32,772 nucleotides of DNA, from IMG/VR virus record IMGVR_UViG_3300014720_000108, positions 1 to 32,772 of that record; one strand, written 5' to 3'. The number at the start of each line of letters is the position of its first letter. Within the stretch, counting starts at the first letter, position 1. The notes beneath the pieces are model-generated. The model worked only from the letters and a program-made list of their open reading frames with translations. It was not told the DNA's origin and did no database searches. Positions 3,443 to 18,100 of the stretch are shown piece after piece. The position numbers and the translations under genes are program-made. The stretch comes from a virus.

Positions 3443-3775
3443 TTATCTCGTTACGTTAGGCAAAACGGTAATAATACCTTCAAAAATTCTTGTAACTTCA
3501 CCTGCGCCGTCATCTATTTCCACATCATAAACATATCTTCCTGGAGTTAGATTTGCGGTATTGGCCGCAGACATAGACATGGTTATTTCACCTAAGGCTG
3601 GTGTTGAAACAGAAACTTGAAATTCTTTAGATGAAGAAGTATAGTAAGACCGGCGCATCATTGAGCGGGCCGAGTATCCAACTAGATTTTGAGGAGAGCC
3701 TGTACCATCATTTACATTAATTACTGTGTTGAAAGTTGCACCCTGTTCAAGGGTTAATTCGACAAATTCGGCCAA
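3443..3775 (-). CDS. Fibre-associated beta-sandwich virion protein (110 aa), TTG start
   Basis: A 110-residue protein (MAEFVELTLEQGATFNTVIN...), beta-rich, with LTPGRYVYDVEIDDGAGEVT, the pattern of small Ig-like phage baseplate/fibre proteins that begin 'i.qGatf...i...d.dG'. No catalytic motif is seen. The start is TTG at 3775: no ATG is suitably placed, and an AGGAG ribosome binding site lies six bases upstream. It follows a 48-base gap, the largest in the left half, and begins the fibre gene trio. The virion role is inferred from fold-like pattern and context. Confidence 0.72.
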   Translation of the reverse strand: MAEFVELTLEQGATFNTVINVNDGTGSPQNLVGYSARSMMRRSYYTSSSKEFQVSVSTPALGEITMSMSAANTANLTPGRYVYDVEIDDGAGEVTRIFEGIITVLPNVTR

Positions 3776-3823: not shown

Positions 3824-4387
3824 TCATAGGTATAGATCAACAGGTATGGCCAGACGAATATTTCCATTGAATGGTGTGACTTGGTGATAAAGGAAACTAG
3901 GAAAAACTACAAAAGAGTATGATTTTGGCTCGAAAATAAAAGATTGAAAAAGTTTATCCCACGGTTCTTCTTTATACCCTCTATTTGCATTTGTCCGAGG
4001 GTCAAAGAAAAAAACATCACCATTTTTATTACCTTCAATTATTAAATAAAAAACAGCAGATAAACTTGCATTTGCGTGATTGTGGTTAACCATATTATAC
4101 CCAATTTGTGAACCAGAAAACCAAGCTTTTAAATGAAAATTTTTAAAGTCATAAAGTGATGATTTTAAAATTTGTTTAATCCAGTCATCAAAACATGGTT
4201 CAACTACATTTTTTTTAAAATCATCAAAATAACTATCTTCTTTAAAAATATTTCTGTCACTAAGGTCACTAATTCCCATATTCTCTAAATTATAATTCTG
4301 TAAAATGTGTTGAGAAATGGAGTCTACTAAGTCAACATTTTTTATACTACCTATTAATATATTTGTTGGCCATAAATTGTGCATCAT
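3824..4387 (-). CDS. Putative 2OG-Fe(II) oxygenase, 2OG-FeII_Oxy_5 type (187 aa)
   Basis: The sequence has the order of motifs seen in the 2OG-FeII_Oxy_5 family, which is frequent in T4-like marine phages. These are an N-terminal MHNLWPTNIL stretch, a NHNHANASLSAVFYL segment with H102 and H104, GDVFFFDPR around D129-R131, and a final VFPSFLYHQVTPFNGNIRLA with H168 and R178. These fit iron and 2-oxoglutarate binding, although which His of the NHNH pair is a ligand cannot be decided here. The substrate is unknown; protein hydroxylation fits the context. It is the last gene of the enzyme block and starts by ATGA overlap with the 131-residue gene. Confidence 0.8.
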   Translation of the reverse strand: MMHNLWPTNILIGSIKNVDLVDSISQHILQNYNLENMGISDLSDRNIFKEDSYFDDFKKNVVEPCFDDWIKQILKSSLYDFKNFHLKAWFSGSQIGYNMVNHNHANASLSAVFYLIIEGNKNGDVFFFDPRTNANRGYKEEPWDKLFQSFIFEPKSYSFVVFPSFLYHQVTPFNGNIRLAIPVDLYL

Positions 4388-4779
4388 AACATAAATTCCT
4401 TGACAAAATATTCTTTAACATCAGGCACCATACCTTTTTTTTCATCAAAATTCCAACCTATATGGTTTAAAATTTCATTGTAAGTTTTAATATCTTTTTC
4501 ATAAGGTAAAAAATAAGGGTCGTTATTATAAAGTAGTTCAGAATCATTTAAATATTCTATTGGATTTCCTCCAAAGTTTTCAGATAACCATCGAGCATAA
4601 CATATTCCAACCATGTAACTTTTAGATGGGTAAATCCAACCAATATTTGTTTCTTTAAAATAACGAATAGCATTTTCAACAACATTTTTTGTAATTTCAA
4701 TATTTTTTGTTTTTAGATCATCATCATAATCTTTATTTAGCCTATGATAAATTTCTTGTCGAATTTTCCAATCTTTCAT
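4384..4779 (-). CDS. Unrecognised protein of the modification block (131 aa)
   Basis: I do not recognise this family. It is a soluble-looking, aromatic-rich protein (NIGWIYPSKSYMVGICYARW, NNDPYFLPYEKDI, MVPDVKEYFVKEFML) with no signal peptide, membrane segment or metal-binding cluster. Its start overlaps the end of the upstream radical-SAM gene by 38 bases, and it hands over to the next oxygenase by ATGA. It is therefore embedded in the operon and probably works with it, perhaps as a binding or adaptor subunit, which is a guess from position. No strong ribosome binding site is seen before its ATG. Confidence 0.7.
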   Translation of the reverse strand: MKDWKIRQEIYHRLNKDYDDDLKTKNIEITKNVVENAIRYFKETNIGWIYPSKSYMVGICYARWLSENFGGNPIEYLNDSELLYNNDPYFLPYEKDIKTYNEILNHIGWNFDEKKGMVPDVKEYFVKEFML

Positions 4780-5683
4780 ATTTGTACCAATCTATTAGGT
4801 GTTTAAAACCATTACAACCATTATCTAAATTTTTAACTTCTCGCAAATGCTCAGAAAGACAATTTCCAAAATATTCACATTTAGAACAAAATGTATTTTT
4901 TGAAACTCTTATCTTTTCTTTTTTACACCAATTTAAATAATCATTATATGTTTCACAATCTAAAAAATATTCTCTATCATTTAAATCAAATTCCAATACT
5001 GCAAACTTACCTTCTGGAGTTATATAAAGATGATCATCGGAAAAACTATTTCTTTTTTTTTCTAAAACATCTTTCAAAAGATATTCATTTATAAATTCAA
5101 AGTTTTTTGGTATCGCACTAGTGATCCACTTTTTAACAAATTCACCATAATCTTTAAAAGAAACAGGTAAACAATTTGCTTGATTCTCACTATACGGTTT
5201 AATCTCAACACTCTGTAAATTGGATAAAAGATTTAATTGAAAAATCATATCATCCACGTTATGATTAATTATTTTATCACTAGCCAATATAAGAATACTA
5301 AATGGTCTGTTTAATTTAATCATATTATTCCAAACTCTTTCATGTTGTTCTCGAACATTAAAATCGTAACTTACAGAAATATAAAAATCTGGATCAGAAA
5401 TAATACTATTAACCATTGAAAGGTTTGTATTTACATTAATTGATTTTATATTGTATTTGTGTAATAATTTTTTTAAATTTAAAATATAATCTTCAGATAA
5501 AAGGCCAATTTCACCGCCATAAAGATCAACATGATCTATAATATCATTATTTAACACTTCAATTATTCTATTTTCTAATAACTCAAGATCTAGTAATTTT
5601 CTATCATTTAACTGTTCAGAAGTTAAATAACAAAAATGACATTTAAAATTGCAATAATAAGTAGGATTAATAGATAGTATCAT
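4742..5683 (-). CDS. Radical SAM protein with reduced SPASM-like C-terminus (313 aa)
   Basis: Starting at ATG 5683, the protein begins MILSINPTYYCNFKCHFCYL. The CX3CX2C motif (C11, C15, C18) binds the [4Fe-4S] cluster that cleaves S-adenosylmethionine, and the later YGGE matches the SAM-binding GGE motif. The C-terminus has CSKCEYFGNC (C266, C269, C275) and C290, a SPASM-like auxiliary cluster region with fewer cysteines than the siblings. An in-frame ATG at 5695 would add four residues; 5683 is preferred because the N-terminus then aligns with the 357-residue neighbour. It overlaps that gene by 17 bases. SPASM enzymes usually modify peptides or proteins; the substrate here is unknown. Confidence 0.88.
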   Translation of the reverse strand: MILSINPTYYCNFKCHFCYLTSEQLNDRKLLDLELLENRIIEVLNNDIIDHVDLYGGEIGLLSEDYILNLKKLLHKYNIKSINVNTNLSMVNSIISDPDFYISVSYDFNVREQHERVWNNMIKLNRPFSILILASDKIINHNVDDMIFQLNLLSNLQSVEIKPYSENQANCLPVSFKDYGEFVKKWITSAIPKNFEFINEYLLKDVLEKKRNSFSDDHLYITPEGKFAVLEFDLNDREYFLDCETYNDYLNWCKKEKIRVSKNTFCSKCEYFGNCLSEHLREVKNLDNGCNGFKHLIDWYKYERLENSTRNLS

Positions 5684-6740
5684 ATTCTTTAACATAAGGT
5701 GTTGGTTCTAAATTAACACCATTTATATCAATTATATCTTGTGCTAAAGATTTCATTTTAATGCAATGTAATTCTACCATATCATGGTCTTTTAAGTCTT
5801 TAATAGTTTTTTTACAACCATTACAAATTTTAAACATTGGACAAGTAAAACAACTCTCTTTTAAACTTAAAAGGTTAACATCTTGTTGAAGAACAAAAAT
5901 TTTTTTACCTTTCATTTCTTCTTCAAAATTTATTGAATGGGATCTATCATCACCAAAAGCACCACAACTATAATAATCACCGCTAGGTTGTAAAGTTCTT
6001 ATTGATTCATCACAACTTCTATTTTGAGGGCATGTGGTATGATTTCCTTTTAATCTTTGCATCATTTGTTTTGTATTATATTCCCATTTCCACAAATCCA
6101 TTTTATAAATTTTAACATATATTTCGTAAATATCTGCTAAAAGATATGGTTTTCCTTGTTGGCCCATAGTAATATTTTTAAATTTTACTGGTGGACCAGA
6201 ACTTAGAGCATAGTTTAATTTACACTCAACATTCATTTTTTTAGCCAATTCTACATTCTTTATTGCATCTTTTTCATTTTCTTTAGTAATAACAGAAATG
6301 AAATCTGGTCTATAACCTATATGTTCTAACATCGTATCACTTACTTTCCAAAAATCTTCTTCAGAAAATTCAGTAAGATCACCTTTTAATCTTCCACCTC
6401 CATATTGAAAACTTGTGGTTACTCCAATTCTCCAATTTAAAAACAAATCTTTCCACTTGTTTACATTTTTATAAAATGGCCACAAATTTGTAGTTAATGA
6501 TATGGTAGTTTTATAATTATTTTCATCTAACCAATTTATTATTTTCCAATAATAATTGGATGGTACCATTAAAGGATCGCCGCCATTAACAATAATTGTA
6601 TTTGTTTCTGGATAACGTTCTAAAAATCTAAAGATATAATCGTGATTTAACTCTGCTGTTTTATCTTCAGTAATATAAGTGCTTGAACAAAAAGTGCATT
6701 TAAAATTACATTTTTCTGTAGGTTTGATTATCAGTTCCAT
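5667..6740 (-). CDS. Radical SAM/SPASM-like protein (357 aa)
   Basis: The N-terminus MELIIKPTEKCNFKCTFC carries the CX3CX2C motif (C11, C15, C18), and NTIIVNGGDPLM supplies a GGD form of the SAM-binding GGE motif. The C-terminal third has many cysteines, including CPQNRSCDES, YYSCGAFGDD and CFTCPMFKICNGC (C297, C300, C306, C309), then C326. This fits an auxiliary-cluster (SPASM or twitch) domain as in peptide-modifying radical-SAM enzymes. The gene starts by TAATG overlap with the upstream oxygenase and overlaps the next radical-SAM gene by 17 bases. A role in modifying a protein or peptide is expected from the family; the target is not evident from this gene itself. Confidence 0.9.
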   Translation of the reverse strand: MELIIKPTEKCNFKCTFCSSTYITEDKTAELNHDYIFRFLERYPETNTIIVNGGDPLMVPSNYYWKIINWLDENNYKTTISLTTNLWPFYKNVNKWKDLFLNWRIGVTTSFQYGGGRLKGDLTEFSEEDFWKVSDTMLEHIGYRPDFISVITKENEKDAIKNVELAKKMNVECKLNYALSSGPPVKFKNITMGQQGKPYLLADIYEIYVKIYKMDLWKWEYNTKQMMQRLKGNHTTCPQNRSCDESIRTLQPSGDYYSCGAFGDDRSHSINFEEEMKGKKIFVLQQDVNLLSLKESCFTCPMFKICNGCKKTIKDLKDHDMVELHCIKMKSLAQDIIDINGVNLEPTPYVKEYDTIY

Positions 6741-7264
6741 TATAAATCAAAATAAAAAGATGACACAATTCTTTTACAATTAGATTTTTCAGCTTTATGT
6801 TGAAAATTATTTAAACAATTTACTGCAACTAACAACCCTTTTTGAGGGTATATTTTCCATTCTCGTACTTTATTTCGAAAATAAACTGCGCCACCTTTTG
6901 ATTCATTCATATCTGAAAAATATAAAAGAAAAAAACAATTCGGTCCTTCTCTGTAATCATTATGCCAATTTAATGCATCTTGATTAACACCTTCCCAAAT
7001 TCTCCTTTTTCTCATAATTGACTGTGGTACTATATCATTTTGAATTTCATAGTGAATTGTAAGTAAACATTTATCTATAAATTCTTTATTATTTTTAGGA
7101 TGATAATCATTATTTAAACCTCCTTCATATTCCCATTCTATCTCTGATACATTTATGTATGAAATGTATTTTTTTCTATCAAATACTTCAAAACCATTTT
7201 CATAAAATTGTTTAGTTAGCATTTGGTTTATCAAATCCATATTTGTTATCACAATCTTTTGCAT
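6740..7264 (-). CDS. 2OG-Fe(II) oxygenase, prolyl-4-hydroxylase-like, paralogue 3 (about 174 aa)
   Basis: Iron and 2-oxoglutarate ligands are visible as WHND (H101, D103 from ATG 7264), H156 in FQHKA, and R165 in CKRIVSSFYF. The motif order xWxGV...WHxD...FLLYF.D....GGA...P..G.L...N....HKA...R..SF.F is shared with the genes at 7501-8022 and 10749-11264. The start is uncertain. ATG 7264 has an AGGTGA ribosome binding site eight bases upstream; GTG 7276 and ATGs at 7240 and 7222 are alternatives, and 7222 would match the paralogues' N-termini best. It overlaps the 98-residue gene and ends in TAATG with the next. Likely a protein side-chain hydroxylase; substrate unknown. Confidence 0.88.
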   Translation of the reverse strand: MQKIVITNMDLINQMLTKQFYENGFEVFDRKKYISYINVSEIEWEYEGGLNNDYHPKNNKEFIDKCLLTIHYEIQNDIVPQSIMRKRRIWEGVNQDALNWHNDYREGPNCFFLLYFSDMNESKGGAVYFRNKVREWKIYPQKGLLVAVNCLNNFQHKAEKSNCKRIVSSFYFDL

Positions 7265-7508
7265 AAAGTGTGTCACCTATACTTTTGACACCTTCAATTT
7301 CACAAATTTTTTTGTTTATTTCTCTGATTTGTTCTTTTATCATACTACCATAAGGTTCCATATTGTTAATCATTTTCATATAAAGTTCATATTTCTCTTT
7401 ATTTTTTTGATAATCATGCAATTTAGTGATCCATATATTATAAATTTCAGCACATAAATCTCTTTCTTTCATCAATTCTTCTTTTCTTTTTAAAAGATCT
7501 TCAATCAT
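7212..7508 (-). CDS. Small coiled-coil-like protein of unknown function (98 aa)
   Basis: A 98-residue, highly charged protein with an almost continuous helical pattern (MIEDLLKRKEELMKERDL..., KEQIREINKKICEIEG) and two late cysteines. I do not recognise it. It starts eight bases inside the end of the upstream oxygenase and overlaps the start of the next oxygenase, so it lies between two paralogous hydroxylase genes. It could be an assembly or substrate-binding partner, but nothing in the sequence shows this. It does not look like a PqqD/RRE winged-helix domain. Confidence 0.65.
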   Translation of the reverse strand: MIEDLLKRKEELMKERDLCAEIYNIWITKLHDYQKNKEKYELYMKMINNMEPYGSMIKEQIREINKKICEIEGVKSIGDTLYAKDCDNKYGFDKPNAN

Positions 7509-8022
7509 CTTTTAATCCCACTCTAAAATCAAAACTTGCAACTCTCCTAGTTACAGATGTACTATCTGCTCTATGCCAAAATCCTCTAAGATTATTTACC
7601 ATAAAAAGGTCTCCAGCTTTTGGCTGAAAACTAGCTATTTCTTCTTTATCTTCTAATGTTCCCCATTTAAAATTAATGGATCCACCAGTCTCCTTAAAAG
7701 TATCATCGAAATAATATAGTAAGAAAATGTCATATTCTTCAAACATGTCAGTATGCCAACCTTGGTTATCTCGGTCTACACCATTCCATACTATAAATTT
7801 ATTGTATTTTGCATCAGGCCATTCGGGCTCAATATATTTTTCTTTTAAGTAAAAAGCAAAAGTTTCTAATCTTTTTGTGAGCTCTGGCGAAACATCATTA
7901 ATGCCATTATCTCTAGTGCGTTCTTCAACATTTATCAATTTAAATTCATTAATTTTTATTAAATCTAACGCACCAGGTTCAAAAAATTTTACAAAACCTT
8001 TTGTGTAAATATCTTTTATCAT
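7501..8022 (-). CDS. 2OG-Fe(II) oxygenase, prolyl-4-hydroxylase-like, paralogue 2 (173 aa)
   Basis: A compact double-stranded beta-helix oxygenase with H90 and D92 in GWHTD, H150 in GFWHRAD, and R159/R160 in TRRVASFDF. These are the expected 2-His-1-carboxylate iron site and the arginine that binds 2-oxoglutarate. FLLYYFDD and ETGGSINFKW separate the two halves, as in P4H-like phage oxygenases. It starts by ATGA overlap with the radical-SAM gene upstream. The whole protein is catalytic domain with no targeting domain, so substrate recognition must lie in the fold or a partner. The reaction expected from the family is hydroxylation of a protein or small-molecule carbon. Confidence 0.9.
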   Translation of the reverse strand: MIKDIYTKGFVKFFEPGALDLIKINEFKLINVEERTRDNGINDVSPELTKRLETFAFYLKEKYIEPEWPDAKYNKFIVWNGVDRDNQGWHTDMFEEYDIFLLYYFDDTFKETGGSINFKWGTLEDKEEIASFQPKAGDLFMVNNLRGFWHRADSTSVTRRVASFDFRVGLKDD

Positions 8023-9740
8023 AAAAATTTAAACATTTCGCTTATTATAATAGGTTTATTATTTTCAATTAATTCATCAACAACTAAATTTCTCAATCTA
8101 CCATTTAATCTTTTAATGTTTTGTGCTTCTGTTTTTGGATCCAGAAGATTTTTAACTTGCTCAAATATTATAGGAAATTCTTCCATTGATGAAATAATAT
8201 CAAAACAATATTTGCCAAAAACATTTGGTTTCATAAACTGTTCAAACATAGGATATATTTGTTCCAATAATTTATTTTCTGCAAGATTCATTATCCACAT
8301 TTCACACATTTCTTCATTGGTAAATGAATAACAAGAAGATATTGTTTTGAAATATGTTCTTTTATTTTTATATAAGCTATTTTGATTATCAACACCAAAC
8401 TCATCTATAAGATCACTATAAACTTCAACCAATTTTATATCATATTTTTCTAAGTAATCTTTTTGCGTCAAATCACTATCAGGCAAAAACATGTAATCAT
8501 GACGATAACTTGTCCATGCTTTGAAGTTCCACATTATTTCCCACTCAGCATAAAAATCATCAAGCGTACTACCTGGCATACCCATAATAAGTTCGATAGC
8601 TGGCACAGGATAACCTTCCTCATGGCAACGCTTATGTATATGCTCACTAAGTTTTATTTTATCTTCAAAAGATAAATCGGCTCTTTTAGCAATCTTCATT
8701 GCTTCATCAGATATACTTTGAATAGATACTGTTGGTACAATGCTAATATATTCTTCATCAAATTGTAATTTACTAACATCATCCATACCAGCTACTAATG
8801 CTTGTCCACCTTCTTTACTTAATACAGGACTATGTTTCTCAGGTCCAGGCCCTACAACATCAAACCATGCATCAACCAAATTAATTCTTCTTTTTAAATC
8901 TTTACTTTTCATTGTACTAATATCAGTACAATTAACACCATTTTCCCAAGCAAATTTAAATATTTCAATATCTCTATCTTTAAATGCACCAAAGTTAGCA
9001 TCGGTTAAATATACATCTCTAAATCCAGCCTTTTTTAAAGCAAGTAAATCTTTTTTAACTATCTCAATAGGTTTTTTATAAATTTTAGAATCAATACCTC
9101 CACCCCATTCACAATAAACACAAGCATAAGGACAACCTCTAGTTGTTTCAATAATGCAAAATGGTTCTAATTCATTTTTACAGGCATAATTTCGAATTTC
9201 TTTCAGATAATCAATATGTTCCTCATATACGCTATAACTAGGCATAAATTGATCACATTGTTTTGAACTTCTTAATTCCCATGAAAGAGATTCTATATCT
9301 GGATTACCTGAAAATTCAAAATACGAATCGATCAATTCTTGTACAAACACTTCACCTGGCTTAGTAGGTTTTAAAATAAAATCATACATTGATCTATTAA
9401 TTAGAAATAAAGGATCATTTGTACCAATTTGTGGCCCACCTAAAACACAAATGCTTGTTGGATATTTTTCTTTTATCAATAAAGCTAATTGATCACAGAC
9501 TTCATAATTCCATATGTAACTAGAAAACAAATAGATTTCATTTTGGCCTATTTCATCAAGTATTTCTTGAACATTAGTATACTTGTTAAATTTATAAGGA
9601 GCAGGATTAAAAATTACCTTATCATTATTTTTTCCAAATCTTTTGTAATGAGATTGGAACATAAGATATGCCGCATTATTTGCTAAGCACCAATCTGCAT
9701 GTGGAGGATTGATGAAGCATACTCTACTTCGATTCAACAT
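8019..9740 (-). CDS. Cobalamin-binding-like radical SAM protein (573 aa)
   Basis: The central motif IETTRGCPYACVYCEWGGG gives CX3CX2C at C203, C207 and C210, with the 'ETTRGCP..C.YC' context typical of B12-dependent radical-SAM proteins. The first 150 residues (RVCFINPPHADW..., IYLFSSYIWN, CVLGGPQIGTNDP, FILKPTKPGEVFVQELID) follow the Rossmann-like cobalamin-binding domain pattern, without the DxHxxG motif that supplies a lower axial His. The remaining 350 residues resemble the TIM-barrel continuation (TVSIQSISDEAM, IELIMGMPGSTLDDF). ATG 9740 is chosen over 9770 because AAGGAAG lies nine bases before it; it then overlaps the upstream gene by 17 bases. Family members often methylate unactivated carbons; the substrate is unknown. 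Confidence 0.88.
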   Translation of the reverse strand: MLNRSRVCFINPPHADWCLANNAAYLMFQSHYKRFGKNNDKVIFNPAPYKFNKYTNVQEILDEIGQNEIYLFSSYIWNYEVCDQLALLIKEKYPTSICVLGGPQIGTNDPLFLINRSMYDFILKPTKPGEVFVQELIDSYFEFSGNPDIESLSWELRSSKQCDQFMPSYSVYEEHIDYLKEIRNYACKNELEPFCIIETTRGCPYACVYCEWGGGIDSKIYKKPIEIVKKDLLALKKAGFRDVYLTDANFGAFKDRDIEIFKFAWENGVNCTDISTMKSKDLKRRINLVDAWFDVVGPGPEKHSPVLSKEGGQALVAGMDDVSKLQFDEEYISIVPTVSIQSISDEAMKIAKRADLSFEDKIKLSEHIHKRCHEEGYPVPAIELIMGMPGSTLDDFYAEWEIMWNFKAWTSYRHDYMFLPDSDLTQKDYLEKYDIKLVEVYSDLIDEFGVDNQNSLYKNKRTYFKTISSCYSFTNEEMCEMWIMNLAENKLLEQIYPMFEQFMKPNVFGKYCFDIISSMEEFPIIFEQVKNLLDPKTEAQNIKRLNGRLRNLVVDELIENNKPIIISEMFKFL

Positions 9741-10743
9741 ATTTAAATACTTCCTTAAACACACATTCATCCATATCTTTAACTAAGTTTTTATAATCAT
9801 TTCTTATGAAACAAGTAAAACCACATCTATTATAATATTCACATGAAAAACAATCATATTCTTTTAAAAATAATTGTATGATTTTTGTTCCACCCAACTC
9901 TTGTGTTTTTGGATCTTTTAATAATACACTTCCAGAACATCCTTTTGGTGTACTATTGTCATTCATTATGGTAAAACTACTACCTCTTGTACAAGACATT
10001 TTATAGTTTTTATCTTTGTTTAGAAAATATTTTACATTGTTGCATTTTGGATAATGATCAACAAGATGTTTATAGAAGGTAAATAATTCGGATTGTTTTG
10101 GCATTAATGCATCGTTAAAATTTTTTCCTGGTAGTAATTTATCCCAATCACAAATAAAATTTGAATAAAGATAGTCAAAATAAGGATCACCTTTTAATAA
10201 CTTATCGATGTTTTGTTTTGTGATGACCAAACTTATAATATTAATATATTCTTTAAATTTTTCAATGTTTCTTTTATAAATTTCAAATTGTTCATTGTTA
10301 AATCTACCTGCTAAATCATAAGAAACATTCATCTTCAAATTGTTTTTCTTACAAAAATTCACAACTTCATCGATACAGTCATATACTAAATTAGTAACAA
10401 AAAGAAATGTTATCTCTTTATCTTGTGACACATTTGATCTTATTGTATCTATAAATTCTTGATAGTAATTTAAAAATCCATCTTTGACGAATTTATCTTG
10501 AAATAATTCACCACCCATGATATGCATCAAAAATTGTTTTTTAGGATTATTATTAATGAATTCTATAATTTTTGGGCACTTGCTAAGTATTTCTTCTTTG
10601 CTAGCACCCAATAAATCATTGTGATTTTGAGGGCAAAAAACACATGACATATTACAATGTTCAAAAAATAAAATGACCACTTCTACATAATCTATAATTT
10701 TATCTTTTATTACATCATAAAAAAAATCTTCATTGTTTAACAT
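9724..10743 (-). CDS. Radical SAM/SPASM protein (339 aa)
   Basis: CX3CX2C occurs in EHCNMSCVFCPQNH (C30, C34, C37), preceded by a longer N-terminal lead (about 29 residues) than in its siblings. HIMGGELFQD supplies the SAM-binding GGE. The C-terminus has CTRGSSF, a PKGCSGS loop and CFSCEYYNRCGFTC (C298, C301, C307, C311), then C327. The CX2CX5CX3C...C spacing is the SPASM signature, so two extra [4Fe-4S] clusters are likely. It begins five bases after the upstream oxygenase. SPASM enzymes typically form thioether, C-C or C-O links, or oxidise side chains, in ribosomal peptides; which of these applies cannot be told from sequence. Confidence 0.9.
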   Translation of the reverse strand: MLNNEDFFYDVIKDKIIDYVEVVILFFEHCNMSCVFCPQNHNDLLGASKEEILSKCPKIIEFINNNPKKQFLMHIMGGELFQDKFVKDGFLNYYQEFIDTIRSNVSQDKEITFLFVTNLVYDCIDEVVNFCKKNNLKMNVSYDLAGRFNNEQFEIYKRNIEKFKEYINIISLVITKQNIDKLLKGDPYFDYLYSNFICDWDKLLPGKNFNDALMPKQSELFTFYKHLVDHYPKCNNVKYFLNKDKNYKMSCTRGSSFTIMNDNSTPKGCSGSVLLKDPKTQELGGTKIIQLFLKEYDCFSCEYYNRCGFTCFIRNDYKNLVKDMDECVFKEVFKYVESK

Positions 10744-10748
10744 TTTTG

Positions 10749-11264
10749 TTAAGTTTTAGGCAAAATAAATTCGAAAGAAGCTAATCTTCTTTTCGTATTT
10801 GCTGTATCAGCTTTGTGTAAAAATTTTTCAGATTGATTTAACCATACTAACATATCCCTTTTTGGATAAATTTTTTGTTCTCCAAAAGGTCCTTTAACAT
10901 ATAAAGCTCCACCAGTTTTTTCAGACATGTCATCAAAATAAAGTAAAAAATTACAATCTACTCCTTTTCCTTCATTACTATCATTGTGCCATTGTTGTGA
11001 TCCAAAATCAACTCCATCCCATATGCCTACATTTCCTAAAGTAAAAGAATTGTAAATTTTTTTTAAATGTTTTTCAGCTATTTTTATTTGAACTTTTTTT
11101 AAAATTGAAAGAACATTTTTAGGTATATAAGATTCGTATTCTTTTTCTTCAAAAATTTCACAATTTTCTATTTTGTAATCTTCAATATTTTTGAAATGTT
11201 TTATAAGATTTGATTGGTGTATAATGCAACATCCTTCTGTTAAAAAATTTTCATATGTTGTCAT
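10749..11264 (-). CDS. 2OG-Fe(II) oxygenase, prolyl-4-hydroxylase-like, paralogue 1 (171 aa)
   Basis: Iron-site residues H93 and D95 lie in QQWHNDSNEG and H150 in KFLHKAD; the 2-oxoglutarate arginine is R159 or R160 in TKRRLASFEF. The IWDGVDFGSQQWHND and FLLYFDDMSEKTGGALYVKG segments align without large gaps with the oxygenases at 7501-8022 and 6740-7264. ATG 11264 overlaps the TGA of the upstream gene as ATGA; this fits better than the TTG two codons earlier. It is the first recognisable enzyme downstream of the cysteine-histidine-tailed 193-residue protein and two unknown proteins. A protein hydroxylase role is inferred. Confidence 0.9.
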   Translation of the reverse strand: MTTYENFLTEGCCIIHQSNLIKHFKNIEDYKIENCEIFEEKEYESYIPKNVLSILKKVQIKIAEKHLKKIYNSFTLGNVGIWDGVDFGSQQWHNDSNEGKGVDCNFLLYFDDMSEKTGGALYVKGPFGEQKIYPKRDMLVWLNQSEKFLHKADTANTKRRLASFEFILPKT

Positions 11265-12397
11265 ACGCAATAATATTGAAATTTTTCTTTTGTGTTTTCT
11301 TTAACACAATTTAAAACAAAATCAATAAAATAATGATTAACTGTTTCTAAATCTATTGAATAAAAAGTACCAGCAGCATGATTACCTTTTAATTCAAAAT
11401 CAATAATTTCTTTCAATTCTTCATCTGTCATTACATCTTTGGTTATATGTTTCAAAAATGTTAATTTGTATTTGTCTGATTTATTGAATCTATAAAAATT
11501 TTCTTCTTCCCATTCTTCGCCAGAAATTTCAGTAAACTTTATAAAATTATCAATATCTTCATCTGTTATATTTTCAAATTTAATATTTCCAGATGTAGAA
11601 GGTTTAAATAGTCCTTCATTATTCCATATTTCTTTTTTAAAGAACACTTTTACTAAAGGAGATTCATCATTTACAATATCATAGAAATTAGAAAAATCAT
11701 AAACTTTTGTTGTTTGTAATTTTTGTTGGAAAGCTTTTCGCAATAAATGTACTAATAATATTTCTTTTATTTCGTAAAAATATTTTTCTAAATCTTTTTT
11801 AATTAAAACTTTTAATATTTTTTTAACTTCTTCTGAAGAAGATCCATCAAATAAATAAGATGCAAGTAAAAATTCAATACTAAAAAATTTTTTATTTTCT
11901 TTGACGAAATTTTCTTTTTCAGTTTTATTAATATTAATAATTTCAAATAAACTATCAAATAAATTTTTTTCAAAATTTAAATAGTATTGTGTATGACTAA
12001 TTCTCATTCGACCATTTGAAAATAAATTTTCTTTAAATGAATAAGATTTTAATAGACTATAACATTCATCGCATTTTGGTTCTTTCAAAACCAATTTATA
12101 CCAATTAATTAAAATTTTTAAAAAATTCTCAGAATCAGAATAAATTACAATTGGTTTATTTCTTTCTTCTAGCTTTAATGAAATTTGATTCATCATGTCA
12201 ACAAAAGATGAAAATGTTTTATTTTCACCAATTAATTCTTCTAAAGAAAGAGAAAAATAAAATAATTTTCCATCAAAACTATTTTCTAAATCAGAAGATA
12301 CTCTATAACCGTGATTTTTGGATATTACAATACGGTCTCTAAAAGTATTTAAATTTTCATCTATATCTAAGTAAATTTTTTTAAACAGGTGTAACAT
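11261..12397 (-). CDS. Unrecognised protein of the modification block (378 aa)
   Basis: I do not recognise this protein. It opens MLHLFKKIYLDIDENLNTFR and has a strand-like VIYSDSENFLKILINWYK stretch near residues 100-120. A long charged helical middle follows, then a C-terminal part with GEEWEEENFYRFN and HAAGTFYSIDL, ending in QYYCV. No signal peptide, membrane segment or known catalytic motif is seen. It overlaps the 229-residue gene upstream by 17 bases and the oxygenase downstream by ATGA. Its coding DNA is extremely rich in A and T and the protein in Lys, Glu, Asn and Phe. Position immediately after the putative substrate and before the enzymes suggests a partner or scaffold role, which is inference only. 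Confidence 0.72.
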   Translation of the reverse strand: MLHLFKKIYLDIDENLNTFRDRIVISKNHGYRVSSDLENSFDGKLFYFSLSLEELIGENKTFSSFVDMMNQISLKLEERNKPIVIYSDSENFLKILINWYKLVLKEPKCDECYSLLKSYSFKENLFSNGRMRISHTQYYLNFEKNLFDSLFEIININKTEKENFVKENKKFFSIEFLLASYLFDGSSSEEVKKILKVLIKKDLEKYFYEIKEILLVHLLRKAFQQKLQTTKVYDFSNFYDIVNDESPLVKVFFKKEIWNNEGLFKPSTSGNIKFENITDEDIDNFIKFTEISGEEWEEENFYRFNKSDKYKLTFLKHITKDVMTDEELKEIIDFELKGNHAAGTFYSIDLETVNHYFIDFVLNCVKENTKEKFQYYCV

Positions 12398-13070
12398 TTA
12401 ATTCAGTTCCTTGTTTGAAATATTTTTCTGCCAAACCATTAGCTATACCCCATGTCATCAAGAAAAGTGGATTATTATTATTTGCCCAATAATAATACAA
12501 ATTTTTTCCTTTAAACATGTATTCTTTGAAAAAATCTTCATAAAAAAATAATTCATTACTTTTCATATTTTCAAATAATAAATTAAAATCTTCGTATTTG
12601 AAAAGATTTACAAAATTATATCCTAAGTCATCACAACTTTTGTGTTCTTTAGATTCAATATCTTTTTTGAAAGTTTCAGAATTAACACAATAAAAATTAT
12701 ACAAAGACATACTTTCTAATAATTTTAAAATTTTGTTGAGTTCTTCTTTATTTTTTTCAATGAAGTCTTTGTAACCAAAATTACTAATGCCTTTTATTTC
12801 TAAAAAAATATTTAAAAATTCTTTTTCTAAAGAAGGTATAGATATAATATTTTTAGTTTTTAAATAATTCATCAATAAATTTTGGTGATCCTCTTTGTTT
12901 TTGTCAAAAATTAAATCACACGGCAAATCTAAATTAGAAAGATAAATTAAAAATTTTTCATTTTTTAAATTGCTATTATCATAATCAATTAAAAAAATTT
13001 TTTGTTTATCATTAAAATATTCTTTCAATTTTTCAATCGCAATTGGCGCAACTGTTTCAATTATATTCAT
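12381..13070 (-). CDS. Unrecognised protein translationally coupled to the CH-tailed protein (229 aa)
   Basis: I do not recognise this protein. It begins MNIIETVAPIAIEKLKEYFN, followed by KIFLIDYDNSNLKN and CDLIFDKNKEDH, an alternating strand/helix pattern. It ends with a more conserved-looking YYYWANNNNPLFLMTWGIAN and the tail GTELNVTPV. ATG 13070 is preferred to ATG 13097 because it overlaps the preceding TAA (TAATG) and has AGAGGAAGAAG just upstream. Those bases also encode the last residues of the 193-residue protein. Such tight coupling suggests near-equimolar synthesis with that protein, for example as chaperone or recognition factor; this is inference from arrangement. Confidence 0.72.
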   Translation of the reverse strand: MNIIETVAPIAIEKLKEYFNDKQKIFLIDYDNSNLKNEKFLIYLSNLDLPCDLIFDKNKEDHQNLLMNYLKTKNIISIPSLEKEFLNIFLEIKGISNFGYKDFIEKNKEELNKILKLLESMSLYNFYCVNSETFKKDIESKEHKSCDDLGYNFVNLFKYEDFNLLFENMKSNELFFYEDFFKEYMFKGKNLYYYWANNNNPLFLMTWGIANGLAEKYFKQGTELNVTPV

Positions 13071-13651
13071 TATCTTCTTCCTCTTGAACCATGGCAATTA
13101 CTATGACATGAATTATGGCAAACACTATATGATGCTAAAAATACATTCTGACGCTGGTTATTATTGTATTGAGAATGACAATCGTCAATAAATTGTACCA
13201 ACCGATATGCATTAATTGTTGCTCCTTCAATTATGTTACCAGTTGATCCAGGATTTGAAAATCCTGGTGCCGCATAAGCTGGTGTCATATGACTTATACC
13301 TGTGCGTGTTTCACTTGTTTGTGCCGGACCACCACTTGCTGTAACAACTCTTGTAACAGATACAGATCTTATTCTACAGTATTCTACAGATCGACCAATT
13401 ATATAATCTTTTATGCCTTGATCATCAATTATATTTCCTGGATTTATACTATTGGTACTTGTAGGAGCTAATGGCAAACCACTCGTTGATCCTCCATAAG
13501 CCGATGTAAATGCGGGATTTGGAATATCAGGAAAATGATAATTATTTGTGCCATATGTTATCCATGAGTTTGCATACGTAACAAATCTACTAAAAAAAGT
13601 ATCATAAAAATCTTGAGCTTGTACTGTTTGTCCAGCTGTTATTTGTGGCAT
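13070..13651 (-). CDS. Virion-like protein with CHxxCHxxCH-GSRGRR tail, candidate modification substrate (193 aa)
   Basis: The first 150 residues are rich in Gly, Ser, Thr and Asn with phage-structural character (MPQITAGQTVQAQDFYDTFF, PGNIIDDQGIKDYIIGRS, GFSNPGSTGNIIEGATINAY) and contain only one cysteine, C92. The C-terminus then has C158-H159 and three regularly spaced pairs, C178-H179, C182-H183 and C186-H187, followed by GSRGRR. No enzyme motif or signal peptide is seen. It has its own late-type promoter and an AAGGAG ribosome binding site before ATG 13651, so it is probably made in quantity late, like virion proteins. It is surrounded by radical-SAM and oxygenase genes. Substrate or metal-binding tail protein are the two readings I favour; neither is proven. 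Confidence 0.8.
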   Translation of the reverse strand: MPQITAGQTVQAQDFYDTFFSRFVTYANSWITYGTNNYHFPDIPNPAFTSAYGGSTSGLPLAPTSTNSINPGNIIDDQGIKDYIIGRSVEYCRIRSVSVTRVVTASGGPAQTSETRTGISHMTPAYAAPGFSNPGSTGNIIEGATINAYRLVQFIDDCHSQYNNNQRQNVFLASYSVCHNSCHSNCHGSRGRR

Positions 13652-13670
13652 TTAAAAACTCCTTTTTGCT

Positions 13671-13678
13671 TATTTATA
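13671..13678 (-). promoter_or_regulatory. T4-type late promoter (TATAAATA) before the CH-tailed protein
   Basis: The minus-strand octamer TATAAATA matches the T4 late-promoter consensus perfectly. It sits 19 bases upstream of ATG 13651, in the 27-base gap after the radical-SAM gene, and is followed by AAGGAG seven bases before the ATG. In T4 this element is used by RNA polymerase with the phage sigma-like and clamp-dependent late factors. It implies a separate strong late transcript for the 193-residue protein and the genes after it. Confidence 0.72.
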
Positions 13679-14719
13679 TCAAGCCACCAACTTTAAATTC
13701 CATACCCTTTTACTATTACCTTTGAGTTCTTTCATTAAACTTTTAGGTGCACCGCAAATATCATCTTGCCACTTCAATTGATGGCAGTCTCCACCACAAT
13801 ATTCAAAAACTTCGCAAGAAAAACACCTAGAGTCTATATTTCTTTCGCAAGCAATATTTTCTATTCTTTTCGGACTATCTAAAAGCTCTTTAATATTCTG
13901 ATCGATATGTCCAAACTGGAACTCTGGTGCTGCATTTGGGCAACCAGATATTGTACCGTCAGCATTTAAAGTGAATAATTTTTCTTCGCAATCACGGCAA
14001 AAAGTTCCACCTCTATTAAAATTTTTCTCAAACTTATCATATACAGTTTCTAAAAATTCATTTTCGAACCAGTATCTAGCTTCATACTGTTCTGATTGTT
14101 TATGCATTTTCAAAAACCATTGATCTTGGTCAATATTAGAAGGAAATATTTCTGGATGTTTGTTTGCACTTCCGTCTTCAGTAAGTCTTTCAAATGCTAC
14201 TTCTTGAACACCTAAAGTTTTTATCCAAGATAATAGATGTATTGGTTCTATGTCTATCGTATCTTGGGTAACGCTTACAAATAATTTTATAGTTACACCT
14301 TCATTTAACAAAGTCTGTACATTTTTATACCAAAGATTTGATTGCTTTTCATTGTCAAATCTTATTTTAGGATCCCAAGAAGTTCCTATTCTACTACCAA
14401 GGGGACCTTTGATAAAGTCAATATGTTCTTGCGTTAATTTAAATACTAAATTTGTTGTAACGCCCCAAGAAATTTGTGGCCACAAATCTTTACACTCATT
14501 CCAAACATACTGCATTTGTTCAACTGGTGCCAGAAAAGGTTCACCCCCATGGAATTCACAATGAAGTGTGCCAGAATTTATAGAAGTAAAGCGTTTGATC
14601 CAATCTGTAACTTTTTTGTAATCCCAATAAATTTTAGGGCCATTAATACCATTTGTGAAACAATGTTTGCAGTTAAGATTACATGTTTCAGTTGTTTTTA
14701 AATAAAACATATAATTCAT
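13679..14719 (-). CDS. Radical SAM/SPASM protein, sulfatase-maturase-like architecture (346 aa)
   Basis: The N-terminus has KTTETCNLNCKHCFTNG with CX3CX2C (C13, C17, C20) and HCEFHGGEPF with the GGE motif at 58-60. The C-terminus holds TFCRDCEEKL, TISGCPNA and CFSCEVFEYCGGDC (C299, C302, C308, C312), then C322. This is the complete SPASM pattern CX2CX5CX3C...C preceded by a GCPN loop. The architecture is that of anaerobic sulfatase maturases and RiPP thioether or crosslinking enzymes, about 370 residues long, so this is near full length. It starts by ATGA overlap with the cupin-like gene and stops one base beyond the late promoter of the 193-residue protein, whose modification is its most economical job. 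Confidence 0.92.
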   Translation of the reverse strand: MNYMFYLKTTETCNLNCKHCFTNGINGPKIYWDYKKVTDWIKRFTSINSGTLHCEFHGGEPFLAPVEQMQYVWNECKDLWPQISWGVTTNLVFKLTQEHIDFIKGPLGSRIGTSWDPKIRFDNEKQSNLWYKNVQTLLNEGVTIKLFVSVTQDTIDIEPIHLLSWIKTLGVQEVAFERLTEDGSANKHPEIFPSNIDQDQWFLKMHKQSEQYEARYWFENEFLETVYDKFEKNFNRGGTFCRDCEEKLFTLNADGTISGCPNAAPEFQFGHIDQNIKELLDSPKRIENIACERNIDSRCFSCEVFEYCGGDCHQLKWQDDICGAPKSLMKELKGNSKRVWNLKLVA

Positions 14720-15189
14720 AATTTATCAACTAAAAATTTTTCAATACCAAAACTTAAAAATAAACAAGAATCGTTGTGTGTTGCCCAATGAGGTCTATTT
14801 GCTTTAATGTAATGTCTATCTTCTTGTTTTAAATGTATCGATACATCATCAAAATTAAGTGTGAATTCACCAAGTAAAATTTGTAGATAAACATCATCGG
14901 GATCGCTATGTCTAGGAAAACTTTTGGAATTAGGAAATGATCTGAAAGCATGACAAGTCACCGGACCATCATGATTAAATATTTTTGATAATTCAAGGGA
15001 GCGTCTATAGATGGAAAGATTATATTTTTCCATACCTTCAACTTTAATTGTTTTTCCATAATTTGAATGAAGTTGACCAAGATTATCTAGATATATTTGC
15101 CTACCTAAATCATCTAAAATTGAAACCAACTTCTGTTCATATGCTAAATCATTTTCAATAAAACGGTGAAACTCATCAAGTGTTATCAT
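14716..15189 (-). CDS. Small JmjC/cupin-like putative oxygenase (157 aa)
   Basis: The C-terminal half reads FPRHSDPDDVYLQILLGEF...LKQEDRHYIKANRPHWATHND...LFLSFGIE. It resembles a cut-down Cupin_4/JmjC ribosomal-oxygenase core: H94 and D96 form the HxD pair, 'DDVYLQILLGE' matches 'hDvfvlQleG', and H134 or H138 would be the distal iron ligand. At 157 residues it lacks the extra domains of bacterial RoxA-type protein hydroxylases. A plain metal-binding cupin without oxygenase activity is possible. It is coupled on both sides, with TAATG to the 1,054-residue fibre and ATGA to the SPASM protein, so it is made with a fibre and a modifying enzyme. Confidence 0.68.
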   Translation of the reverse strand: MITLDEFHRFIENDLAYEQKLVSILDDLGRQIYLDNLGQLHSNYGKTIKVEGMEKYNLSIYRRSLELSKIFNHDGPVTCHAFRSFPNSKSFPRHSDPDDVYLQILLGEFTLNFDDVSIHLKQEDRHYIKANRPHWATHNDSCLFLSFGIEKFLVDKL

Positions 15190-18100
15190 TATAAAATAGC
15201 TGTTTCTACTAATCCTTCTTCTTCTGTATTTTTTGTTTCGATAGCTATACCAAAATAATTTTGCTGATTATATTGTGCCACACCAGCAGTAGAACTTATA
15301 CCTAAAGGTTGTCCTTTTTTAATTTTACCTAAAACTCTAACTGAAACTCGACCTTTAATACCTACTGTTGTGCCGCCTTCAAGTTCACTATTCATTGTAT
15401 ATGCAGGTCTATATGATACTACACCTAAGACTTTAAAGTCAACAATAGTTGAGGCTGTTACTTCTTTATCGCCGCCAATTGATAAAACGGTACCAATTGG
15501 ATATTCTCTGTCGGCCAAATATTTTTCTGCCAAGTCAGCATATCGAGCTGAAGTAGCTGTACCTGAGAAAAGAGAAGCAGTTACGGTGTATCCGGTGGCA
15601 TTTATATCACCAACTGATCTTAATCCAGAATTGAATTGTGCATACGGACTTACAGTAAAGGAACTGCCGCCCATTGAAAATGATCCGCCAGTTTGATTAA
15701 ATCCAGTACAGTTTTGAATCGATCCGCCATTTAAGTTTGTAGCTGTGCCAGCTGTAGTTGCTGAACCTGCTGTAGTTGCTGATGTTGCTGATGTTGCAGA
15801 AGCCGCAGTACCAGAAATGCTAATTGGGTATGTTCCACTAAATGCAGCCCATGATGCGGTAGTACCATCAGTACTTAAATACCTTCCAGAATTTCCTCCT
15901 TGCGGCGGTAATGCAGACAAGCCACCTGTAACTGAATCAACATAAGCTTTTGTGGCGGCGTGTAATGGTATTGATGGATAACTCGTTCCAGGTAGTGTTA
16001 TACCTCCAGTCATTGTTCCGCCAGTTAATGGTAAGTAACCAGCTAAAGTAGAATTAATTGATGTGTTTCCTACAACATCTTGATATGTTGAACCATCATT
16101 TGTAAATCTCCATTTATCAGCAGTTTCATCCCATAAAAAATAAGTATTTGGAGAAGCTCCTCGATCAACTTCCAATCCAGCATTTTCAATTGGAGAAGCA
16201 GACTGTAATATATCTGAATTTAATGTTATAATTGCATCAGCAATTTTTAAATCATTAGCAAAAATTGATGCACCAGTAGCATTTAAAACACCATTGATTG
16301 TTAAATCACCTGTTATAGTACCACCAGAAGATGTAATTCCTGTATTTGCACGAGCAAACGCTGCATTAGCATGAGTATATGCATTGAAAGCATAATTGTT
16401 TATTGTATTTGCAAATGTAAATGCTGCATTAGCATGAACATTTGCCAAAGAAGCTCTAACGTTGGCATCAACTGCTTTTTGATCAGCAATTGCGGCGTTT
16501 GTCAAAGCGGTGTTTGCAGTAAAGTATGCTGAGTTTGTATGAGTGCCTGTTGTTCCCGCAAAAGCTGCGTTAGCAACATTGTGTGCCGAATTTGCATGAG
16601 CATAAGCTAATTGTCCACCAGCATTAAATGCTACATTGGCCGCATCAAAAGCTTGTTGTGCCAAATTATTTGCGGTGTTTGCATGTGCATAAGATGAATT
16701 AGCATGTCTAAAAGCAACGTTAACGTGCGTATCTGTTGTACCATTAAATGCAGAATTTGCTACATTATGTGCCGAGTTTGCATGAATGTATCCAGTATTT
16801 GCATAAACTCCAGTTGTGTTTTGACTTAAAAATGCACTATTAGCATGTCTGTACGCCGCATTAGCATAACCGCCAGCAACAACACCACCTGCTTCATATG
16901 CAAATTTAACAGCACTTGCAGATGCAACAAGAGTATCACTTGAAGAATCAACTCCAGTATAAATGTCTGCGCCATCTAAAATTTTGTATGTTGTTGTCCA
17001 AGTATTACCTGTTGAAACTTCCCAACGATCATTAATTTCATTCCAAAGAATTTGTGCATTATTTCCTGAAATGCGTCTATTAATTATAAATGCATCTTTA
17101 TTTGTACCAGTATTTGCATTAAATATAAATCTATCTGTCTCAAAATTAATATTACCTGTTTGCGTGAATATTCCAGCTACGGTAAGATTACCTTCAATAA
17201 CAGTAGTTTGTAATCTGGTTAGTCCAGAAATTACGGCTATAGCATCATTTGCTGATCCAGAATTAAATCTTAATGTTGATCCATTTGTAAAATTTAAATT
17301 ACTAGAAACATTTGCATTTGTAATATTTGCTGAAACAATATTTGAACTTAATAAAGTAGATGTATTTAAAGTAGCATTATTCGATGTAAGTGTTACTACA
17401 TTACCATTGATAATCGTACCATTTGTAATTGTACCATTTGTAATTTGACCAGTTGTAATTGCAGCCGAAGAAATAACAGCATTTGCAATTGCAGCGTTAG
17501 TTACTGTTGTATTGACTAAAGTAGATGTATTTAAAGTAGCATTGTTTGATATAAGTGTTACTACATTGCCATTGATAATTGTACCATTTGTTGCATTTAA
17601 ATTTCCAATAGTTGCAGTATTAATTGTTGCAACATTAGATGTAAGTGTTACTACATTACCTGTACCATTTGCAACAAAATCTCTGATCGTTCCAGTATTA
17701 GCATATAATGTATTTGATGTTAAATAATAAACATTACCTGTTGTTACACGCAAAATACCAATTACAGCAGAAGCAATATCAGAAAGGTTATCAATAAAAG
17801 CTTCAAGCGCATAAATTGTTCCAACATTAGCCTGATCCAATGTTGCAGTAGTTAGATATGCATTATTCACATATACAGTTCCAGTATTTGCTTCTAATAC
17901 TTTACCTGTTCCTGATAATGTAACAATACCAGCAACATTTGCAGTACCGCCAACATATACGGAATTATTTACAAGTGCATTGTTCGCATATACATTGCCT
18001 CTGACATTACTATTACCACCAACATACACGCTATTTGAAACATTAACTGCTTCACCTGGCCCAGCAATCAGAACCGAGTTACCTATAGAAACATTACCAA

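Follow-up and report, generated by a model that had tools for sequence, protein, structure and literature searches.

Radical-SAM enzymes and oxygenases encoded beside phage tail fibres: a candidate maturation cassette for a conserved C-terminal protein tail

The virus record IMGVR_UViG_3300014720_000108 of IMG/VR, a stretch of 32.8 kb (32,772 nt, analysed at its full length and hereafter called the window), harbors between fibre genes of a T4-like phage, at positions 3824–15189 of the minus strand, a block coding for five radical S-adenosylmethionine (SAM) proteins, four 2-oxoglutarate (2OG) Fe(II) oxygenases, and a JmjC-like cupin. Such a set goes far beyond one oxygenase gained by chance. 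The original prediction for this locus had proposed a multi-step maturation comparable to the pathways of ribosomally synthesized and post-translationally modified peptides (RiPPs), leaving the target open as a tail protein or a host target and naming no substrate. The open reading frames (ORFs) that it listed are all present on the minus strand at the coordinates given, and they overlap or abut in nearly every case; it had overlooked three genes, i.e., one for a protein bearing a C-terminal tail (13070–13651), which is the likely substrate and is encoded inside the operon itself, and those for two widely conserved partners, x12381 (12381–13097, likely start ATG at 13070) and x11261 (11261–12397). 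The block probably represents one RiPP-like cassette by which an attachment protein associated with the fibre is matured, in several steps, at its C-terminal tail.

The gene at 13070–13651 lies directly after that of the first radical-SAM enzyme (rSAM1, 13679–14719), i.e., between it and the remaining block, and codes for a tail-bearing protein of 193 residues (CHT) that ends in CHNSCHSNCHGSRGRR. No Pfam or NCBIfam family matched this protein; its similarity to PHROG_35144 is limited to the last 50 residues, and sequences matching its C-terminal part occur in jumbo phages of Burkholderia and Pseudomonas. The DNA of the 16-residue C-terminal tail, the proposed modified region, spans 13073–13120, and the CH pattern is matched once in the window (13091–13120), versus no match in 100 shuffles. 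Probing with the tail protein alone did not retrieve any relative, because the bodies of these proteins are too divergent; thus, the DNA pattern of the tail and the rSAM1 sequence were used instead against viral contigs. The pattern occurs in at least 119 stretches. Only ORFs of some length that close with the motif were accepted, so that loose matches in simple CH-rich repeats (L003, L018, L047, L115, and others) were dropped; at least 92 loci, among them the window and Burkholderia phage FLC8, have an ORF of this kind.

To avoid circularity, the viral contigs were also searched with rSAM1 only, and the best 80 of 380 relatives were taken. The tail protein is encoded beside rSAM1 in all 75 loci with enough sequence, the remaining five ending too early, and in most loci its gene starts between −22 and +42 nt from the rSAM1 stop codon. 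The conservation argument uses this enzyme-based set, the Cys/His conservation in the pattern-derived alignments A2 and A3 being partly forced by the pattern; tails were extracted from the set with a C/H filter, and the Arg and Ser positions were not demanded. In the 64 distinct ends, the tail reads C-H-x-S-C-H-x-[SN]-C-H-x-[SN]-R-[GS]-R-R, with a few Ala; the Arg at −4, −2, and −1 and the Ser at −13 are invariant though not demanded by the search. Upstream of the tail the columns are variable, and the bodies, of 125–364 residues and with a predicted fold, diverge among loci. We strongly infer that this C-terminal tail is the substrate of the enzymes, and rSAM1 very probably acts on the tail of the 13070–13651 protein.

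Some tails depart from this form. In a 504-kb phage (L042, 560–1138), the tail is longer and lacks the Arg end (...CHTNCHSSCHSSCHSSCHGSSGGW), and rSAM1 is very divergent. Moreover, one clade (L017, L021, L022, L053, L009, and relatives) has tails ending in CHGS[IL] with no RGRR; this clade lacks the cupin (0/13), and rSAM2 and rSAM4 are missing from those of its loci long enough to show them. The cupin is present in 89 of 119 loci with the Arg end versus none of 13 without it. This association is only a hint, because it may mostly reflect one clade and because bacterial cassettes with no detected cupin keep the RGRR end. A fusion of fibre and tail was also sought; the longest tail protein seen has 364 residues, and no fusion was found.

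The proposed first tail-modifying enzyme, rSAM1, is a radical SAM/SPASM protein, and its assignment relies on several lines of evidence. Its match to PF04055 falls below the cut-off (1e-5), and it matches PHROG_1802 (3e-68); its CX3CX2C motif and seven more Cys residues are invariant among 22 relatives. With the SPASM model TIGR04085 it scores 36.9 bits, above the cut-off of 27. The best profile matches of rSAM1 are peptide and protein maturases (PapB, DarE, DynA, and sulfatase maturase), and the solved structures nearest to it by sequence include chains of ChlB, anaerobic sulfatase maturase, and MoaA.

The analysis of the gene order, with near-duplicates removed before counting, revealed a conserved arrangement: fibre, cupin, rSAM1, tail protein, x12381, x11261, and further enzymes. 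The helper protein x12381 follows the tail gene in all the loci tested (124/124 for tails with the Arg end, 9/9 for tails lacking it), and the second partner, x11261, is frequent (91/119 and 7/8 loci). As for the fibre, the protein encoded upstream of the cassette at 15189–18353 has a C-terminal domain falling in PHROG_22593 (4e-14), and this domain recurs directly before the cassette in 73/104 and in 11/11 loci. The rSAM1 gene lies within 2.2 kb upstream of the tail gene in 111 of 137 loci with the Arg end and in all 14 without it. Most of the 26 exceptions share another arrangement, consisting of a fibre, one or two tail genes, and x12381, with the enzymes elsewhere; rSAM1 was found in nine of the 11 whole virus records tested, the remaining two being fragments of 36–37 kb. 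According to this separate arrangement and to the whole-record search, the tail protein remains next to the fibre even when parted from the enzymes, and next to x12381 as well in the loci whose sequence allows this to be seen. Tandem pairs of short tail proteins (124–140 residues) stand beside the fibre domain in L038, L039, L052, L067, L104, L113, L259, L264, L283, and others, and in such loci the enzyme genes are several kilobases or more distant.

A search of 50,697 phage records with rSAM1 and with rSAM3 retrieved the same six isolated phages (seven records) in each case, and all six phages having rSAM1 also have the tail protein; in the four phages whose region was inspected the tail gene adjoins rSAM1, and in the other two phages it is a tblastn- or profile-level match near rSAM1. 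Phages FLC8 and pPa_SNUABM_DT01 share the same neighbourhood, with the cupin, a radical-SAM enzyme, the tail protein, the partners, and more radical-SAM and oxygenase genes. FLC8 is filed under Chiangmaivirus, which is phiKZ-related, and pPa_SNUABM_DT01 is unclassified. Atu_ph07, in turn, is placed by its published description among Rak2-like phages with T4 core proteins (PMC6102473); the carriers thus span different phage lineages. The original prediction had taken scattered, mutually independent genes in related phages as evidence against a common pathway; in the related phages the set stays together, so that this objection does not hold, and a multi-step maturation of the RiPP kind is well supported. 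In FLC8, two dihydrofolate reductase-like genes lie within the enzyme cassette (L001, 13893–15108), a naming used for a relative in PMC11898562.

Predicted structures were obtained for two of these proteins. The model of the tail protein has fair confidence (predicted local distance difference test, pLDDT, 82) and gave no usable match in the PDB; its best viral structure matches include a 296-residue protein of Atu_ph07, the length of the Atu_ph07 tail protein. The x12381 model has high confidence (pLDDT 90); it also gave no usable PDB match, and no RRE (peptide-recognition) fold came up in these searches, although x12381 may still have one.

The cassette is not confined to viruses. From the search for the tail pattern in 84,980 species genomes, seven contigs resulted, several of them labelled Bacteriovoracaceae or Halobacteriovoraceae; a search with x12381 gave matches in 12 of the 129 genomes available for the order and in 17 of 369 for the phylum. 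By eye, the contigs carry ordinary chromosomal genes (cbb3 oxidase, acyl-CoA dehydrogenase, transporters), and one of them is 4.15 Mb long. In the rSAM1 tree, phage and bacterial sequences are interleaved and supported branches force at least three changes, the bootstrap being not fully settled. The bacterial tails vary (CHSSHSSHSSHSSRGRR, CHSNHCSHSNHGSRGRR, CHGNFPPPCHGSRGRR, and CHTNVPTPPPCHASRGRR, besides the phage form); most share the initial C-H and the final H-x-[SA]-R-G-R-R, with inner Cys residues dispensable, and one (L318) holds pure HSS repeats. These forms bear on another explanation, according to which the tail, dense in Cys and His, would be a metal-binding or redox-cofactor site, either matured by the enzymes or unmodified, and not a receptor contact. 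The loss of inner Cys in some bacterial tails argues against such a site, and an unmodified metal site would make the strict linkage to a radical-SAM enzyme needless, so that we regard this explanation as improbable.

Beside the bacterial cassettes there is a gene whose product has a C-terminal Peptidase_S74 domain, a chaperone of phage fibres. An S74 gene lies near the cassette in 11 of 13 genomes, versus 0.7 expected from the number of S74 genes per genome; under a simple Poisson model the chance of this adjacency is about 1e-14, and it rises to 7e-12 once some close relatives are merged. The S74 proteins near the cassette mostly have a pilin-type N-terminal methylation motif, although in some the motif scores under the Pfam threshold or is missing. 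Prey recognition in Bdellovibrio involves S74 and related fibres (PMC10769870). In phages and bacteria alike, then, the tail gene adjoins the gene of a trimeric, phage-like fibre. Short S74 fibre genes stand by the cassette in L312, L313, L316, L317, and L319–L324 (e.g., L324, 17376–19096); in these loci the S74 gene is followed by that of a companion of about 190 residues with no Pfam match, several of which end in GRHWVKIK, and a small protein with a twin-arginine-like start accompanies it. Furthermore, Cys-rich radical-SAM-like proteins of the NGC..C type, hardly seen by Pfam, are encoded in L314 (4998–5996, directly before the tail gene), L319 (9301–12572), and L321 (6368–9639).

On this basis, the following scenario can be depicted. 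The substrate would be the 13070–13651 protein, with a folded, lineage-variable body and a near-invariant tail of the form (C-H-x-[SN])n ... H-x-S-R-G-R-R, on which rSAM1 would act. The x12381 protein might present or guard the tail protein and, usually together with x11261, would represent a substrate-specific helper. The other radical-SAM, cobalamin-type, 2OG, and cupin enzymes would then tailor the tail further at Cys, His, Ser, or Arg; judging from their families, (C-)methylation by the cobalamin-type enzyme, hydroxylation by the oxygenases, and cross-linking or rearrangement by the radical-SAM/SPASM enzymes may be expected, and the order of these steps, like their chemistry, is a proposal. 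Since some bacterial tails hold a single Cys, the modification cannot consist of Cys thioethers at every repeat; His-x-Ser may be its unit, recalling the His-Xaa-Ser system. The finished protein would keep its tail, presumably sit in the virion or at the fibre tip, and work with the neighbouring fibre in an attachment organelle, that is, the tail fibre or baseplate tip in phages and an S74 fibre with a pilin-type N terminus in Bacteriovoracaceae-type bacteria. That the positive charge of RGRR, along with the neighbouring fibre, serves contact with the cell surface is a guess.

The same features might instead be read as those of a phage-borne RiPP, with the body as a large leader and a modified tail that is cut off and released at lysis as a peptide active on competitors or on the host. 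The enzyme set and the repeat-type C-terminal core do resemble RiPP clusters, and yet the body has 125–364 residues and a predicted fold, and the location is constantly beside fibre genes, both in phages and in bacteria. In addition, no peptidase or exporter family matched among the window cassette genes scanned by profile, a further difference from a classical exported RiPP cluster; for this reason a tail retained on its protein is favoured, and a released peptide appears unlikely.

Other data weigh against a single fibre-associated substrate matured in this way. The enzyme complement differs among loci, 2OG oxygenases being present in 21 of 38 and the cobalamin-type enzyme in 8 of 38. By eye, the bacterial tail proteins have no obvious signal peptide, so that an extracellular site in bacteria needs an unexplained export route, and in one bacterial locus (L329) no tail gene is visible in the space from rSAM1 to x12381. 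Finally, in the Atu_ph07 paper (PMC6102473), a structural cluster given as "CDS 170-215" starts exactly at the tail protein gp170, and the CDS numbering agrees with the record (gp215 is the major capsid protein); gp170 as a proven virion protein was rejected, because all three clusters published there span 46 CDS, and such equal widths may reflect a fixed window and not detection. Virion proteomes have been determined for Atu_ph07 and RP31 (PMC6102473, PMC5468394), and a paper on a Sinorhizobium jumbo phage did not settle the virion location of the tail protein. The patchy enzymes, which need not all share one substrate, and the arrangement in which tail genes lie apart from the enzymes would also fit a model where the targets of the enzymes are several different proteins of the virion or the host, and where only synteny keeps the tail gene nearby. 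Synteny alone hardly explains an association with rSAM1 in 75 of 75 loci and with x12381 in 133 of 133, recurring in phage lineages and bacterial chromosomes, and we hold this model to be very unlikely.

The comparison with known systems revealed partial likenesses. The His-Xaa-Ser system shares with the cassette C-terminal H-x-S repeats and radical-SAM partners; rSAM2 has its best NCBIfam match in HxsB, and pure HSS repeats make up some of the bacterial cassette tails. The phage tails are mostly C-H-x-[SN], and they differ from that system in their C-H-x-S repeats and RGRR end, as does the cassette in its many more enzymes and its fibre context. Moreover, rSAM2 reaches 28.7 bits versus an HxsB cut-off of 370, the equivalog cut-offs of HxsB and HxsC are not reached, and the HxsA precursor and HxsD models did not match any of 30 tail proteins, x12381, or x11261; membership is not claimed, because no curated model of that system reaches its cut-off. 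Repeats are typical of radical-SAM peptide substrates. One example is freyrasin (PMC8326336), and the ranthipeptide systems (PapB/freyrasin and SCIFF/CteB) resemble the cassette in a radical SAM/SPASM enzyme adjoining a protein with evenly spaced Cys; PapB is the best NCBIfam match of rSAM1 (2e-14), although with 53 bits versus a cut-off of 340, and the cassette tail lacks the CX3D motif and follows a large folded body where those systems have a short leader. The CXXX-repeat radical-SAM maturases (TIGR04115) share the Cys every fourth residue of the phage tails, but the score is 24.7 bits versus a cut-off of 350, and the inner Cys is dispensable in some bacterial cassettes. As in the maturation of sulfatases, whose maturases are among the rSAM1 matches, and of quinohemoprotein amine dehydrogenase, a protein and not a released peptide would be modified; the cassette differs from these systems in its target motif, its several enzymes, and its viral carrier. 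The MAT fibres of Bdellovibrio are S74-type trimeric fibres of predatory bacteria, and S74 genes flank the bacterial cassettes, although the flanking S74 proteins are short, most of them with a pilin methylation motif at the N terminus; no mention of radical SAM was found in the paper describing the MAT fibres (PMC10769870). The tail protein, with its C-terminal part, and the cassette radical-SAM enzymes are members or relatives of PHROG_35144 and PHROG_1802, annotated as "unknown function" and "radical SAM domain-containing protein", respectively.

In the open-access literature searched, which leaves most subscription literature outside, searches on the tail sequence, on phage radical SAM together with RiPPs, and on virion radical SAM did not bring up a description of such a system. 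The cassette is real, widespread, and coherent, and the general idea of the original prediction was right in kind; as many as ten radical-chemistry enzymes, together with a small protein bearing the near-invariant tail, are encoded beside attachment-fibre genes in numerous large tailed phages and in some predatory bacteria. The present analysis newly adds the proposed substrate and its helper protein, and it shows the cassette in several phage lineages and, on bacterial chromosomes, next to S74 fibres. We tentatively suggest, with somewhat more doubt than conviction, a transferable system of unrelated phages and predatory bacteria that would densely modify, by radical and oxygenase chemistry, the C-terminal tail of the protein at the tip of an attachment organelle; the contact surface of the fibre tip would then reach beyond the 20 standard amino acids, and host or prey would be engaged in a so far undescribed, post-translational way. 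If the proposed maturation is true, tailed phages and predatory bacteria make part of their attachment machinery by RiPP-like radical chemistry; viruses would be a source of enzymes acting on a defined 16-residue tag, and the setting of host range and of prey entry could be seen in a new light. It would also account for genes that appear as "radical SAM" or "Fe-S oxidoreductase" in papers on jumbo phages, where no role is assigned to them (PMC8066314, PMC11898562, and PMC5468394). The claim is directly testable, the tail being short, the enzymes adjacent, and several cassette phages in culture.

The remaining genes of the block agree with the five radical-SAM proteins, four oxygenases, and cupin that had been predicted. 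The cupin (14716–15189) matches PHROG_8014 (1e-14) and, below the cut-off, PF07883 (2e-5), with HxD...H seen by eye. Three 2OG-Fe(II) oxygenase-like proteins, with HxD...H...R by eye, match PF13640 just below the cut-off (10749–11270, 1.5e-5; 7501–8022, 3e-4) or at it (6740–7276, 9e-6), and the fourth, of the Oxy_5 type (3824–4387), is above the PF13759 cut-off (1.6e-12). The radical-SAM enzyme rSAM2 (9724–10743), with SPASM-like Cys, is below the PF04055 cut-off (2e-4) and is backed, like rSAM1, by PHROG_1802 (1e-23). The other three are above the PF04055 cut-off: a KedN5-like enzyme resembling the cobalamin type (8019–9770; KedN5 family, 6e-22), with a match to the B12-binding domain PF02310 too weak to secure that domain (E-value 0.14); rSAM3 (5667–6740; PF04055 3e-10, PHROG_1802 1e-56), whose SPASM-like C terminus scores 26.3 bits with TIGR04085, borderline and just below the cut-off; and rSAM4 (4742–5695; PF04055 2e-8, PHROG_1802 4e-41). 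Presence counts of rSAM3 and rSAM4 are unreliable, the two enzymes being related and their iterated profiles picking up each other's sequences. Two small proteins complete the block, i.e., x7212 (7212–7508), which in some loci (L063 and L101) again accompanies the cobalamin-type enzyme, and the conserved x4384 (4384–4779), which recurs behind rSAM4.

Outside the block, positions 24.8–32.8 kb of the window hold mostly T4-like baseplate genes (PHROG_219, 1e-162; PHROG_438; PHROG_261). After these, the strand that encodes them continues with two very long tail-type proteins, then with the enzyme block and a further fibre. The two flanking tail fibres of the original prediction are plausible: the upstream one is fibre-like and carries the PHROG_22593 domain, and at the other end the tail-fibre match of 1–3240 is weak (4e-5), with 3443–3775 matching "L-shaped tail fiber assembly" (1e-19). 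The G+C content of the enzyme block (4001–14000) is 0.23–0.29 versus 0.32–0.40 in most flanking bins, and its GC skew is more strongly negative than in the flanking structural genes; because of this lower G+C and stronger skew, the block may have been acquired separately.

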